Shown here piece by piece: positions 26,823-37,137 of a DNA stretch of 38,606 nucleotides; the first letter of the stretch is position 1, and each line of letters starts with the position of its first letter. The notes beneath the pieces are model-generated. The model worked only from the letters and a program-made list of their open reading frames with translations, was not told the DNA's origin and searched no databases. The stretch covers positions 1 to 38,606 of the forward strand of contig JANQJH010000110.1 of NCBI GenBank assembly GCA_028281705.1, written 5' to 3'. Origin of the DNA: Verrucomicrobiales bacterium (GTDB taxonomy: Bacteria > Verrucomicrobiota > Verrucomicrobiia > Verrucomicrobiales > DEV007). A program made the translations under genes and the position numbers.

Positions 26823-29654
26823 TTACAAGAGTTCGAGCAGGCTCTTGTAGAGCTCGAGTTCTGCCTTGACGTGGTCCTTGGCTTGACCGTCCACCATCCA
26901 GTCTCTTGGCCGGCTCTCGCCGTCCACACGTTTGAGCGTGCCGTTGATCTGGTTGCATGCTGAGCCGTAGTGGCCGTTCCTCACCTTCTTACAAGCGCGG
27001 CGCACTTTCGATGCCAGTTGATGGCGCTTGATATGCTTGGACCACCAGTTCCACCAGCCCCAACCGTGATGGTTGCCCTGAAATTCGCTCAAGGGATAAC
27101 AGCGGATGGTGTGCGACAACGTGCACAGGCCCTGCTCGATGAAGTCACTGGGCACACCAGGATCGGTCGGCGTTGGGTCAGCACCGTCAAGGACGCCGTC
27201 ATCATCGGTGTCCGCATCGAGCGGGTTGCTTCCCTGATCGGCTTCGTAGCCATCGCTGGCGCCGTCGTCATCGCTGTCGGGGTCGAGCGGATCGGTCTCG
27301 AGGGCTTCTTCGTTGCCGTCGGTCAATCCGTCATTGTCACTGTCTTCGTTCAGCGGGTCCGTGCCGTTGGTGACTTCATCGCCGTCGTTGACGCCATCGT
27401 CGTCGGTGTCGGCTACCAATGGATCCGTTCCCTGCGTTCCCTCGTCAGTGTCGCTCAGGCCGTCGTTGTCGTCGTCGGTGTCAGCGTTGTCGCCGATCCC
27501 GTCGCCGTCGTTATCCGATGACTCGGCCGGATCGAAGGGGAACGCATCGTCTCCATCGAGGACACCATCGTTGTCATCGTCGGTGTCGGCGTTGTCGCCA
27601 GTGCCGTCACCGTCGTTGTCCGAAGACTCAGCTGGGTCAAGCGGGAAAACGTCAGTGGCGTCATCGACCCCGTCGTTGTCCGTGTCAGCGCTCAATGGGT
27701 TGGTCCCACCGTTGGTCTCGTCGGTATCGCTGAGGCCGTCACCATCGCTGTCGCTGTTGGGATCAAATGGATCGACGTCATCCACGTCTGACACGCCATC
27801 GTTGTCGTCGTCAATGTCAGCATTGTCGCCGAGCCCGTCGCCGTCGTTGTCCGACGACTCGTTCGGATCGAAGGGGAACGCGTCGTCGCCATCGAGCACG
27901 CCGTCGTTGTCGTCATCAAGGTCTGCGTTGTTTCCGGTGCCGTCACCGTCGGTGTCCGTGGTTTCGCTCGGATCGAACGGGAACGCGTCGTCCACGTCCG
28001 CGATGCCGTCATTGTCATCGTCGAGGTCGGCATTGTCGCCCACGCCATCGCCGTCGTTGTCCGATGACTCACTCGGGTCGAGGGGAAAGGCATCGGAGCC
28101 ATCCACCACGCCGTCGTTGTCGTCGTCGAGGTCGGCATTGTCGCCCACTCCGTCGCCGTCGTTGTCCGAAGATTCGCCTGCGTCGAGCGGGAAGGCGTCA
28201 CTGCTGTCATCGACCCCGTCATTGTCGTCGTCGAGGTCCGCATGGTTGCCAATACCGTCGCCGTCGGTGTCGATGTCTTCGTTGGGATCAAACGGGAAGG
28301 CATCGCTGACATCGGACGTGCCGTCGTTGTCATCGTCAATGTCGGCGTTGTCGCCAATTCCATCACCGTCGTTGTCGCTGGACTCGTTAGGGTCAAGCGG
28401 GAAGGCATCCGAGCCGTCGTCGACTCCGTCATTGTCGTCGTCGCTGTCGGCATTGTCGCCGGTTCCGTCGCCATCGGTGTCGGTGGTTTCGGCAGCATCA
28501 TTCGGGAAGGCGTCAGCACCGTCATTGACGCCGTCGCCGTCGCTATCGGGATTGAGGGGATCCGTGCCGCCAGTCGTCTCGGCGAGATCGCTCACTCCGT
28601 CACCGTCGCTATCGCTGTTCGGATCGTTGGGGTCGGCGTCCTGCCCGTTGGGCACGCCATCGAGGTCGTCGTCCTCCAGGCTATCGTCGCCGCAACCGAC
28701 TAACGGGAAGTCGAAGGCCGCTTCATCGTCATCGTCGCTGTTAATCGTCAGCGTGGCGCCCCGGACACCGCCGCCGCCCGGGGCAAACTCGACTTGGAAA
28801 GTCGCGGTGGTTCCCGCCGCGATGGAGCTTGGCGCGTTCAACACGCTGTAATCGGCAGCATGCGTGCCGCCTAGATCGATCGAACTGACGGTGAGATCGG
28901 CATCGCCGGAGTTGCGCACCGTGATGTCACGCGAAACGCTGGAACCAGTGGCAACCTTCCCGTAGTCGACCGGAGCTGCTTGGCCGTCGGTGAGTTCGGG
29001 ATCAGTCGTACCCGGTCCGTCGTAAACCTGGATCTCGGGAGCGGTCGACGGTGCATCGACAATGTTGCCATATTGCAGGTGATCGACCCACACATCCTCT
29101 GCGCCGCCCTCGGGGACAAACTCGAATTCACGTATTCCATCAGGATCGTGAAAGCCCCAGAAGGTGTTGGTGGACGGGTTGCGGTAGACTCGATTAAACC
29201 CCTGGGTTTCGTTGACTCCCCGAACGGTGAACCCGCCGATGTTCGTATTCGCATAGGTGATCACGATCCCTACCGCCGAAGGGTAATCGGGACCCGAGAA
29301 GGTGACTTTCACCCGTTTTTGGCCGCGGAAAGCGTATGTCTCCCCAGGAAGTGGAAACCGAGGCTGGATGTAGAGGTTGTTCGTCCCTGTTCCTCCATCG
29401 AAGGTCCGATCCTCGAAGTCCTCCAGGAAGTCGGCGCTGCCGCTGCCGAAAAATCCGGCAGGAACATCGGCGGGGGACGCATACGGCGTTCCGCGGTGCA
29501 CCAGAGTGGGCGCGCCGGTTGCAGACCACTGCAGGATGGATGTCGCTGCTACAATCAGCGGGACCAGACGGAGGAGTACCGATCTAAACGATTCTAGCAG
29601 GAATCTGAATCGATTCGGAGGTTTGTTCATTGCTTGTCTTATTCGGGCTATCAT
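26823..29654 (-). CDS. Exported thrombospondin type 3 repeat protein with basic C-terminal domain
   Basis: The 943-residue protein can start at the ATG at 29654 or at a second ATG eight codons on; neither has a clear ribosome binding site. Residues 20-47 are a signal peptide. The N-terminal domain (about 48-200) contains [13 protein letters not shown] and YVDHLQYG-like beta sequence. Residues 225-320 form an Ig/HYDIN-like domain. Residues 326-845 are extremely acidic thrombospondin type 3 repeats with DxDxDGxxD calcium-binding patterns. The last 100 residues are basic, with a Trp/His cluster ([14 protein letters not shown]) and four Cys. Known repeats of this type bind many calcium ions and stiffen. 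The function is probably surface or matrix structure. Confidence 0.85.
27444..28514 (-). repeat. Tandem 105-bp coding repeats (nine near-copies)
   Basis: Residues 381-737 of the thrombospondin-type protein consist of units of exactly 35 residues starting DAFP (or DVFP). Seven run head to tail from residue 381, then comes a divergent 42-residue unit, then two more. The core pattern is [21 protein letters not shown]. The unit length is constant, so copies could change in number by slippage or recombination without breaking the frame. Confidence 0.92.
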
Positions 29655-34915: not shown

Positions 34916-35893
34916 GTGAGCGATTTCCTTCCCACGCGCGATCAGATCGAGACCGCCTCGGCCTTGGTTCACCGAACCTTGCCTCCCACGGCGCATATTT
35001 GCTGGCCACAGCTCTGCCGGCGAGTCGGCGCCGAAGTCTGGGTCAAACACGAAAACCACCAGCCCGTCGGCTCCTTCAAAATCCGTGGCAGCCTCGTCTT
35101 GATCAACGATTGGTCACCTTCTCTCGCACCCTCAACAGATATCATCTCCGCCACGCGAGGTAATCACGGTCAGGGCCTCGCCTTCGCCACGAGGCAATTC
35201 GGCCTCAAGACCACCATCGTCGTCCCCCGCAAGAACAGCCGCGAAAAGAATGCCGCCATGCAGGCTCTCGGCGCCGAACTCATCGAACATGGCAATGATT
35301 TCGCCGATGCCTACGAACATGCCCAACACCTGGCGAAGGAACGTGCGGCGCCCTTCGCCCCCTCCTTCCACCCGCTCTTGATTCGTGGAGTCGCCTCCTA
35401 TTGGCTCGAGTTCTTCACCGCCCTGCCCGATCTCGACACCGTCTACGTCCCCATCGGCCTCGGCTCCGGGATCTGCGCCGGCATCGCCACCCGAGACGCC
35501 CTCGGACTGCGGACGGCCATCGTCGGCGTCGTCGCCTCCTCGGCGCCCACCTATGCCAGGTCCTACGCTCAAGGAGCCCCCGTCTCCCATCCGGTGGCAC
35601 CCACCCTCGCCGATGGCGTCGCCGTCCCCCATCCCGATCCCGCCGCCTTGGAACTCATCGCCCGCGGAGTCGAACGCGTCCTCGAAATCGACGAAGCATC
35701 CATCAAAGAGGCCATGCGCACCTACTTCATCGACACCCACAACGTCGCCGAGGGAGCCGCCGCCATTCCCCTGGCCGCACTCCTCCAGGAGCGCGACCAA
35801 CAACAAGGGAAAAAGATCGGCCTCATCCTCACAGGATCAAACGTCGACCACGAAATCTTCGCCGACGCCCTAACACTCAATCCCCTTTCGTGA
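34916..35893 (+). CDS. Threonine/serine dehydratase-like PLP enzyme
   Basis: The 325-residue protein starts at GTG 34916. It belongs to fold type II PLP enzymes: the PLP lysine is in VGSFKIRGS, the substrate loop is TRGNHGQGLA, and a glycine-rich phosphate loop GLGSG follows. This set is typical of threonine ammonia-lyase and serine dehydratase. Length matches the short catabolic form without a regulatory ACT domain. It is 15 bp after the small secreted protein gene. The last three codons and the stop lie in the first unit of the 35-bp repeat array, so the natural C-terminus may have been replaced by repeat sequence. Confidence 0.88.
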   Translation: MSDFLPTRDQIETASALVHRTLPPTAHICWPQLCRRVGAEVWVKHENHQPVGSFKIRGSLVLINDWSPSLAPSTDIISATRGNHGQGLAFATRQFGLKTTIVVPRKNSREKNAAMQALGAELIEHGNDFADAYEHAQHLAKERAAPFAPSFHPLLIRGVASYWLEFFTALPDLDTVYVPIGLGSGICAGIATRDALGLRTAIVGVVASSAPTYARSYAQGAPVSHPVAPTLADGVAVPHPDPAALELIARGVERVLEIDEASIKEAMRTYFIDTHNVAEGAAAIPLAALLQERDQQQGKKIGLILTGSNVDHEIFADALTLNPLS

Positions 35894-36025
35894 ATTCCGC
35901 GCCTTCCGTTGACCCCCCTTCTTTCGTGATTTCCGCGCCTTTCGTTGACCCCTCTCTTTCGTGATTTTCGCGCCTTTCGTTGACCCCTCTCTTTCGTGAT
36001 TTTCGCGCCTTTCGTTGACTCCTAC
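35885..36025. repeat. 35-bp tandem repeat, four units, filling a convergent gap
   Basis: Four head-to-tail units start at 35885 (36 bp), 35921, 35956 and 35991 (35 bp each). Units 2 and 3 differ by one base, and 3 and 4 by a few at the end. Each contains three TTTCG or TTCCG blocks and the segment GTTGAC. There are no spacers, so this is not CRISPR. The first unit contains the dehydratase stop codon, and the last reaches the stop codon of the oppositely oriented oxidoreductase. I see no hairpin within a unit. Confidence 0.93.
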
Positions 36026-37137
36026 CCAAGCGCCACGACCTCCCCGTTCCTCCCCGATTCAATCGCCGCGTTGACGATGGCGCAGATATCCCGCGCACCC
36101 CGCGCATCGAGAACCAATCCTTCATCTTCGCCACCCTCCAATGCCCTCACAAACTCCTCCACGAGAAGGAAATTGTTCTCCTCCGCCAGCCGTTGATGCC
36201 TGAACTCCAACGGCGGCTGCTCTCGATAGTGCAGCGCGACCTCCGGCCTGGCCTCCGAAATCACCAATCGGCCTTCACTTCCCAAGAGGTGCAGTTTGAT
36301 CTCCCCGATGTCCGGATGTGCCGCCGCCCCAATGCGCCCGAGACACAGCGTCCCCACGACGCCACCGGCCATTTCCAAGGTGACCGTCGCCAGATCATCG
36401 ACCTCGTTGTCGACGTTTGCCTGATGAAAGTGTGTCGCCGTCCGGGCAAATACTCTTTCGACCGCGAGACCACCGGTGAGCATTCGCATGTAAGCCAGCG
36501 GATAGATGCCTTCAATCTGCAACTCCCCCATCGGCAACACGCCCACCCCACCGTCGGAGCCGTCCGCATGGGCCTCCAATTGCCGCTCCAGCCAGTTGAT
36601 CGGAGGATCCCCCTCCCTGCGGCTCCCCTTTGGAGGACCGGCATCCTTGGAGAAATAGAAATCGCAATGGATCGCCTGCAAGGCCCCGATATCCCCCCGC
36701 GCCACCACATCCCGGACCTGGAGCAGCGCCGGAAGATAATTGCGATTCCACACCAAGCAACGCACCCTGTGCTTCTCCACCGCCTCCACCAGCCGATCAC
36801 ACTCCGCCAGCGTCGTCGAGAGCGGCTTGTCCACGATGATATGCAAACCGGCATGCGCGGCCCTCATCGCGAGATCGCAGTGCCGTTCCGCCTCCGAACT
36901 CACCACCGCCACATCAGCACCGCACGTATCGAAGGCGACCTGTGGGTCCTTGTGATAGGGAATCCCTAACTGATCCGCGTAGAGCTGGTTGCGCTGGTGG
37001 ACCCAGTCGGGACAAGCCGCATCGTCCGCCACCGCCACCACATCAAACCGCGGGTGGGCCGCCACGGCATTGGGCAAGTAATCGTGCTTCACCACGCTCA
37101 ATGCAATCGCCCGATAGCGCTTCTTCGCTTCCGTCAT
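36022..37137 (-). CDS. Gfo/Idh/MocA family oxidoreductase
   Basis: The 371-residue protein has the family plan: an N-terminal dinucleotide-binding domain with VVAVADDAA at the second strand, the VDKPLS version of the conserved EKP motif, and a C-terminal beta-sheet domain with a GVLPMGELQIEG stretch and several strands typical of the family. Known members oxidise or reduce sugars, inositols or related compounds with NAD(P). The first glycine loop is weak (IALSVVKHDYLP), so the N-terminal site may be altered. Its ATG overlaps the stop of the upstream gene by 4 nt, and it is the last gene of the MFS operon. The substrate is unknown. Confidence 0.87.
   Translation of the reverse strand: MTEAKKRYRAIALSVVKHDYLPNAVAAHPRFDVVAVADDAACPDWVHQRNQLYADQLGIPYHKDPQVAFDTCGADVAVVSSEAERHCDLAMRAAHAGLHIIVDKPLSTTLAECDRLVEAVEKHRVRCLVWNRNYLPALLQVRDVVARGDIGALQAIHCDFYFSKDAGPPKGSRREGDPPINWLERQLEAHADGSDGGVGVLPMGELQIEGIYPLAYMRMLTGGLAVERVFARTATHFHQANVDNEVDDLATVTLEMAGGVVGTLCLGRIGAAAHPDIGEIKLHLLGSEGRLVISEARPEVALHYREQPPLEFRHQRLAEENNFLLVEEFVRALEGGEDEGLVLDARGARDICAIVNAAIESGRNGEVVALG

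Follow-up and report, generated by a model that had tools for sequence, protein, structure and literature searches.

The nearest parallel in behaviour to the repeat described here is that of the REP sequences with their RAYT transposases. For REPs, most reported positions are in gaps that separate tandem or convergent genes (PMC3733652). REP and REPIN sequences are, like the present repeat, short, dispersed and intergenic, they occur as singles and as inverted pairs, they are biased away from promoters, and a cognate nuclease gene, prone to horizontal transfer and flanked by the same repeat, is found in the same genome. MITEs and the solo terminal inverted repeats of insertion sequences share with it the inverted terminal units, the intergenic location, the multiple copies and the existence of solo and paired forms, and intrinsic terminators between convergent genes share its location. 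The GxxExxY proteins (PF13366 PDDEXK_3, TIGR04256) are common, yet no known function was found for them; the public entries of the family carry no link to repeats or mobility, and a link between GxxExxY and repeats was not found in the open-access literature, where papers naming the family mention it in passing. Intergenic repeats with a 9-nt period, in turn, are scattered in unrelated environmental bacteria, without explanation so far. In this study, we have analysed an array of such repeats in a 38,606-nt stretch of DNA from a Verrucomicrobiales bacterium (the window, at its full length) and we hold, with moderate confidence, that it consists of solo end-units, clustered in tandem, from a dispersed, GxxExxY-associated element family.

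A tandem array between two convergent genes

The left gene of the locus (34916–35893, plus strand) encodes a PLP-dependent, threonine dehydratase-like enzyme (Pfam PF00291, E=2.8e-62) and the right gene (36022–37137, minus strand) a GFO/IDH/MocA oxidoreductase (Pfam PF22725/PF01408). The gap between their stop codons (35894–36021, 128 bp) is filled by four units of a 9-nt-periodic TTTCGTG repeat on the plus strand, identified both by TRF and by the copies found genome-wide. TRF reports a single array at 35885–36023, with a period of 35, 3.9 copies, 94% matches, 0 indels and a score of 227. The 28-bp core of the unit, TTTCGTGnnTTTCGTGnnTTTCGTTGAC, itself has a period of 9 nt, with the layout TTTCGTGnn TTTCGTGnn TTTCGTTGAC; the T-rich strand of the array is the plus strand and the A-rich strand the minus strand. 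The four plus-strand cores lie at 35886–35913 (unit 1, TTTCGTGAATTCCGCGCCTTCCGTTGAC), 35922–35949 (unit 2, TTTCGTGATTTCCGCGCCTTTCGTTGAC), 35957–35984 (unit 3, TTTCGTGATTTTCGCGCCTTTCGTTGAC) and 35992–36019 (unit 4), with unit-to-unit spacings of 36, 35 and 35. The cores of units 3 and 4 are the same, that of unit 2 is off by one base and that of unit 1 by several. Thus, the array, the length of the gap and the near-identity of units 2–4 are as they had been given in a preliminary description of this DNA, and the low-complexity minus-strand peptide mentioned there is present as an 85-aa frame (35877–36134). Elsewhere in the window there is a coding tandem array (27460–28486), with a 105-bp period and about 9.5 copies, within the minus-strand frame 26823–29501.

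The same description claimed that the repeat supplies the stop codons of both genes and has replaced their natural ends. For the dehydratase the stop codon, TGA at 35891–35893, does lie within unit 1, which contributes just the last two codons (L, S) and the stop, whereas the TAG of the oxidoreductase, whose last base is 36022, lies 2 nt beyond the core of unit 4, so that the A-rich strand of this unit starts 2 nt past the stop codon, and touches the TRF extension only. The replacement of the gene ends was overstated: both proteins are full length, and in the alignment of the C-termini each ends within a few residues of its orthologues, which indicates that neither gene has lost any notable part of its natural end. 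The two genes stand side by side in none of the relatives found.

Dispersal, placement and form of the unit

The core is present in 49 copies on some 30 contigs of this 8.3-Mb genome (at most 3 mismatches), and the reversed-pattern control has 0 copies in the same genome. These counts strongly support the dispersed repeat family that had been suggested from the window alone, and they contradict the refuting outcome named there, a genome with no further copies. In 37 relatives, three congeners included, there is no copy (at most 2 mismatches). A related form, ending in TTTCGTGG, occurs in 18 of 289 genomes of the phylum, several with 10–35 copies, which bears out the earlier mention of similar repeats in this group. 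Near-identical 28-mers, mostly as inverted pairs, are found in unrelated bacteria (Methylobacter, Gallionella, Deefgea, Opitutae), and a scan of GTDB genomes with a looser pattern gave at least 119 stretches; among the matches listed, most are from Methylobacter, Methylovulum, Gallionella, Sideroxydans, Deefgea and Sulfuriferula, with single records from Bacteroidetes, Brocadiia, Deltaproteobacteria and Opitutae. The strict motif of this genome had no match in an exact-pattern scan of GTDB genome contigs, no array was found in a search of plasmids, no core pattern in a search of viruses, and Rfam held no credible match to the repeat.

The question raised earlier, whether other copies also sit between convergent genes, is answered in the affirmative for this genome, where such placement was found for 19 of 26 clusters, compared with 28 of 161 background gene pairs (Fisher p=3e-8); the other 7 clusters separate tandem genes, and no cluster separates divergent ones. 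The 26 scored clusters are those with a called gene on both sides and the background is about 216 kb of the same genome, the genes being called by a simple, crude codon-based caller, with long uncalled gaps in some of the tandem calls. The A-rich strand typically starts 2–60 nt past a stop codon. In another genome, G124, the related units are mostly between tandem genes, and the convergent bias is therefore not general to the repeat family.

In this genome, the unit often stands alone or in head-to-tail arrays, and paired forms are present on contigs C295 and C133. Elsewhere, the unit is usually paired, as inverted GTCCACGAAA...TTTCGTGGAC, in 61 of 87 clusters. The interiors of these pairs, of 1–379 bp, are unrelated, just 7 of 1830 interior pairs being similar. 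Within a pair, the 7-mers of the arms agree at 95% and the dinucleotide spacers at 43%, the latter no better than for arms re-paired between loci. As the 7-mers match while the spacers are at chance, the conserved feature is the 7-mer at 9-nt spacing rather than a hairpin, and such conservation of CACGAAA suggests that a protein recognises it. The inverted pairs enclosing these interiors in Methylobacter, Gallionella and others (loci L198–L277) often span the gap from about 10–30 nt after one gene to about 10–30 nt before the next. A comparison with an empty site, available for one orthologous pair (L252 and L259), gave no clean junction, the element-free site holding unrelated sequence, and no target-site duplication was found in that pair. 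There is also a second form (type B) in the genome of the window, at five loci (L107, L109, L111, L114 and L118, on C471, C605, C657, C299 and C228, respectively), where two units stand tail to tail in a near-perfect hairpin, TTTCGTG..GTGGACAAC..GTTGTCCAC..CACGAAA, flanked at either end by long conserved sequence, so that the whole resembles a larger MITE.

GxxExxY genes and their flanking repeats

Two loci that had been fetched for the repeat only, from a Methylobacter (L221) and a Gallionellaceae genome (L228), aligned across the space between the units, and the stretch common to them encodes a GxxExxY protein. Five GxxExxY genes were found when the whole genome of the window was searched. 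One of them (C164, 6111–6455) is followed by at least three tandem units, which start 9 nt past the stop codon and run to the contig end; the first two complete units equal those at C259 and C377 and have one mismatch relative to unit 2 of the window. Its protein is well above the family cut-offs (PF13366, E=2.7e-39, 134.6 bits, cut-off 22; TIGR04256, E=9.7e-39, 132.3 bits, cut-off 35) and keeps the catalytic residues of a PD-(D/E)XK nuclease, D63 and E73xK75. As the units are downstream only, and point the other way from those of the canonical right end, this locus departs from the textbook form of a complete element. With a profile made from four GxxExxY proteins of this genome, we detected GxxExxY frames in the repeat-selected loci L184, L146, L221 and L228, all adjoining units. 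At L221, the complete element spans about 440 bp and consists of a unit, 3 nt, the ATG, 126 aa, the stop codon, 6 nt and an inverted unit; L184, in G124, has the same layout. Inverted copies are close on both sides of a GxxExxY gene in Methylobacter and in an Opitutaceae-type genome. No GxxExxY gene lies beside the window array itself.

The Gallionellaceae copy beside the repeat (L228, 1537–1863) is frameshifted after residue 81, past the motif-2 region, and is probably dead for this reason; it was left out once the frameshift had been seen. The nearest relative of the C164 gene, at L353, has on each side a copy of a larger repeat, in direct orientation, with the CACGAAA unit at its start (ACCACGAAAGACACGAAAAACACGAAAGTTTTTTTGTTGCGGCAAA...). 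Structure prediction from the single L221 sequence gave a mean pLDDT of 33.9 and no usable fold, and a profile search of solved structures with GxxExxY found nothing.

The association is also seen outside the loci chosen for the repeat. PF13366 genes are present, at least one each, in 51 of 115 sampled genomes of this phylum, from which a sample was drawn with one gene per genome and with the repeats disregarded. In the flanks of these unselected genes, among lags from 5 to 21, self-similarity is highest at lag 9, and, in a set of 30 that includes three genes of this genome, the inverted repeats formed by the upstream and downstream flanks, often of 9-nt period, exceed the 95th percentile of control windows from the same loci in 23 genes; in 17 they exceed even the largest control (Mann-Whitney p=1.7e-9). 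The repeat types of the flanks differ (CACAGAG, CACGGAG, CGCCAAG, CGCTAAT and others). Tandem CRCGRAA motifs flank the genes of 16 of 30 proteins similar to that of C164 and of 0 of 29 remote ones (p=1.9e-6; both groups were partly collected by similarity search and are not independent genome samples), and 4 of the 112 distal windows taken from these loci have the tandem motif. When placed on the protein tree, the repeat label requires 13 changes, compared with a shuffled mean of 18 and with 0 of 500 shuffles as low, so that repeat type and clade are correlated, not strictly linked. The C164 protein groups with proteins of Methylobacter and Gallionellaceae (100/92) and with that of L353 (99/82), all of them flanked by CACGAAA units, and judging from this grouping with proteobacterial proteins the gene and its repeat type appear to have crossed phyla together. 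Two more GxxExxY genes of this genome, at L317 (C168) and L319 (C489), have different 9-nt-periodic repeats (CGCCAAGAC / CTTTGCGTGAG and CACGGAGGC, respectively), as expected if each GxxExxY clade has its own repeat.

Origin of the array and comparison with known systems

We build a model from what was observed: the unit is dispersed and has a preferred placement, GxxExxY genes are bracketed by it, and the type of repeat goes with the protein clade. A complete element would comprise GTCCACGAAAnnCACGAAAnnCACGAAA, the gene of the GxxExxY nuclease (PD-(D/E)XK, PF13366) and TTTCGTGnnTTTCGTGnnTTTCGTGGAC, with the inverted units bracketing the gene. The nuclease would recognise the 9-nt-periodic CACGAAA motif, and cutting followed by repair, or an unknown recombination step, would copy or move the ends, with or without the gene, into intergenic DNA. 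Solo units would survive where they are harmless, chiefly just past stop codons between convergent genes, and some of them would then expand locally head to tail, as units 2–4 of the window may have done. We infer from the sequences that GxxExxY proteins bind, recognise and cut the repeat and thereby mobilise it, and that the window array derives from an element whose gene survives on C164; the data thus suggest that the repeat is the end of a mobile element of a kind not yet described, dispersed through the genome. More tentatively still, and at a little below even likelihood, GxxExxY proteins at large could be the enzymes of very widespread, undescribed mobile elements of about 440 bp, in each of which a single PD-(D/E)XK nuclease gene would have an array of three 9-nt repeats on either side, in inverted orientation; every clade would have its repeat type (CACGAAA, CAGAGGCA, CGCCAAGA and others), and the many 9-nt-periodic intergenic repeats of environmental bacteria, those of the window included, would be non-autonomous remains. 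We count against an element the low number of copies, only about 50 in 8.3 Mb, and the unrelated interiors of the paired units, unlike those of an ordinary MITE.

Other explanations account for parts of these data. The identity of units 3 and 4, the near-identity of unit 2 and the absence of the unit from the congeners would fit a recent local duplication, but a private slippage repeat without wider meaning is very improbable and, as a full explanation, is refuted by the dispersed copies (49 on some 30 contigs, with none for the reversed control) and by the near-identical 28-mers of other phyla; slippage can account for the head-to-tail expansion in the window and not for the unit itself. A bidirectional terminator or barrier, selected between colliding transcripts, would explain the strong convergent bias (19 of 26 clusters) and the usual start of the A-rich strand 2–60 nt past a stop codon, and the pyrimidine-rich T-rich strand might resemble Rho loading sites. 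This explanation, raised in the preliminary description, is nevertheless unlikely: the array RNA has no stable fold (z of -0.59 on the plus and +2.47 on the minus strand), just a few dozen convergent gaps carry the unit, with 0 of 28 in the background sample, the units of G124 are mostly between tandem genes, and the chance-level match of the arm spacers in pairs elsewhere indicates that a hairpin is not what is conserved. A hairpin terminator was likewise rejected, as there is no G+C-rich stem with a T run and the plus strand has only about two weak 5-pair pattern hits, and a transcription barrier of the usual form is left unsupported on either strand.

It is rather improbable, too, that a RAYT (Y1 transposase) has spread the unit as a REP-type element or that the unit is the MITE of some classical insertion sequence, even though the dispersed, intergenic, 3'-end location resembles that of REPs (PMC3733652) and the inverted pairs and type-B hairpins of this genome look MITE-like. 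None of the four Y1_Tnp (PF01797) genes of the genome has the unit in its locus of about 2–3 kb, by which a RAYT link was discarded; the unit is not palindromic and lacks a GTAG or CGTC tag, and the pair interiors are not conserved. We regard as similarly improbable a binding site for a host nucleoid or regulatory protein, with GxxExxY genes merely located in repeat-rich intergenic DNA. The conserved 7-mer at 9-nt spacing, with two variable spacer bases, is what such a site could look like, but the congeners have no copies, the tandem motif is rare in distal windows (4 of 112), and chance co-location would not be expected to place inverted repeats a few nucleotides from both sides of the gene, with a type that tracks the protein clade.

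Set beside the described systems, the GxxExxY-associated element family that we favour differs from REP/RAYT in its enzyme, which would be a PD-(D/E)XK nuclease where RAYTs are HUH Y1 transposases, in its unit, made of three 9-nt direct repeats and not of a palindrome, and in its consensus GTCAACGAAAGGCACGGAAATCACGAAA, without GTAG or CGTC at the ends; no RAYT lies beside any copy tested. Inverted terminal repeats that bracket an element, as in MITEs, are found at L221 and L184, in the 61 of 87 clusters and in the pairs on C295 and C133, whereas the unrelated interiors and the lack of any DDE transposase found with such ends set these forms apart from MITEs. The array transcript has neither the stable stem nor the U tract of an intrinsic terminator. 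By profile score, the C164 protein and the other flanked proteins are members of the GxxExxY family with the catalytic residues kept; bracketing of the gene by 9-nt-periodic inverted repeats is seen at L221 and L184, with an inverted repeat in 23 of 30 unselected genes, and is one-sided at C164 and absent at the window. The link between GxxExxY and repeats gives both a testable function, that of a nuclease recognising and spreading the repeat on its own flanks. Such a system, if confirmed, would solve the problem of RAYTs and REP sequences a second time and by unrelated means, and it would supply gene ends with stop codons, spacer DNA and small reading frames of low complexity.
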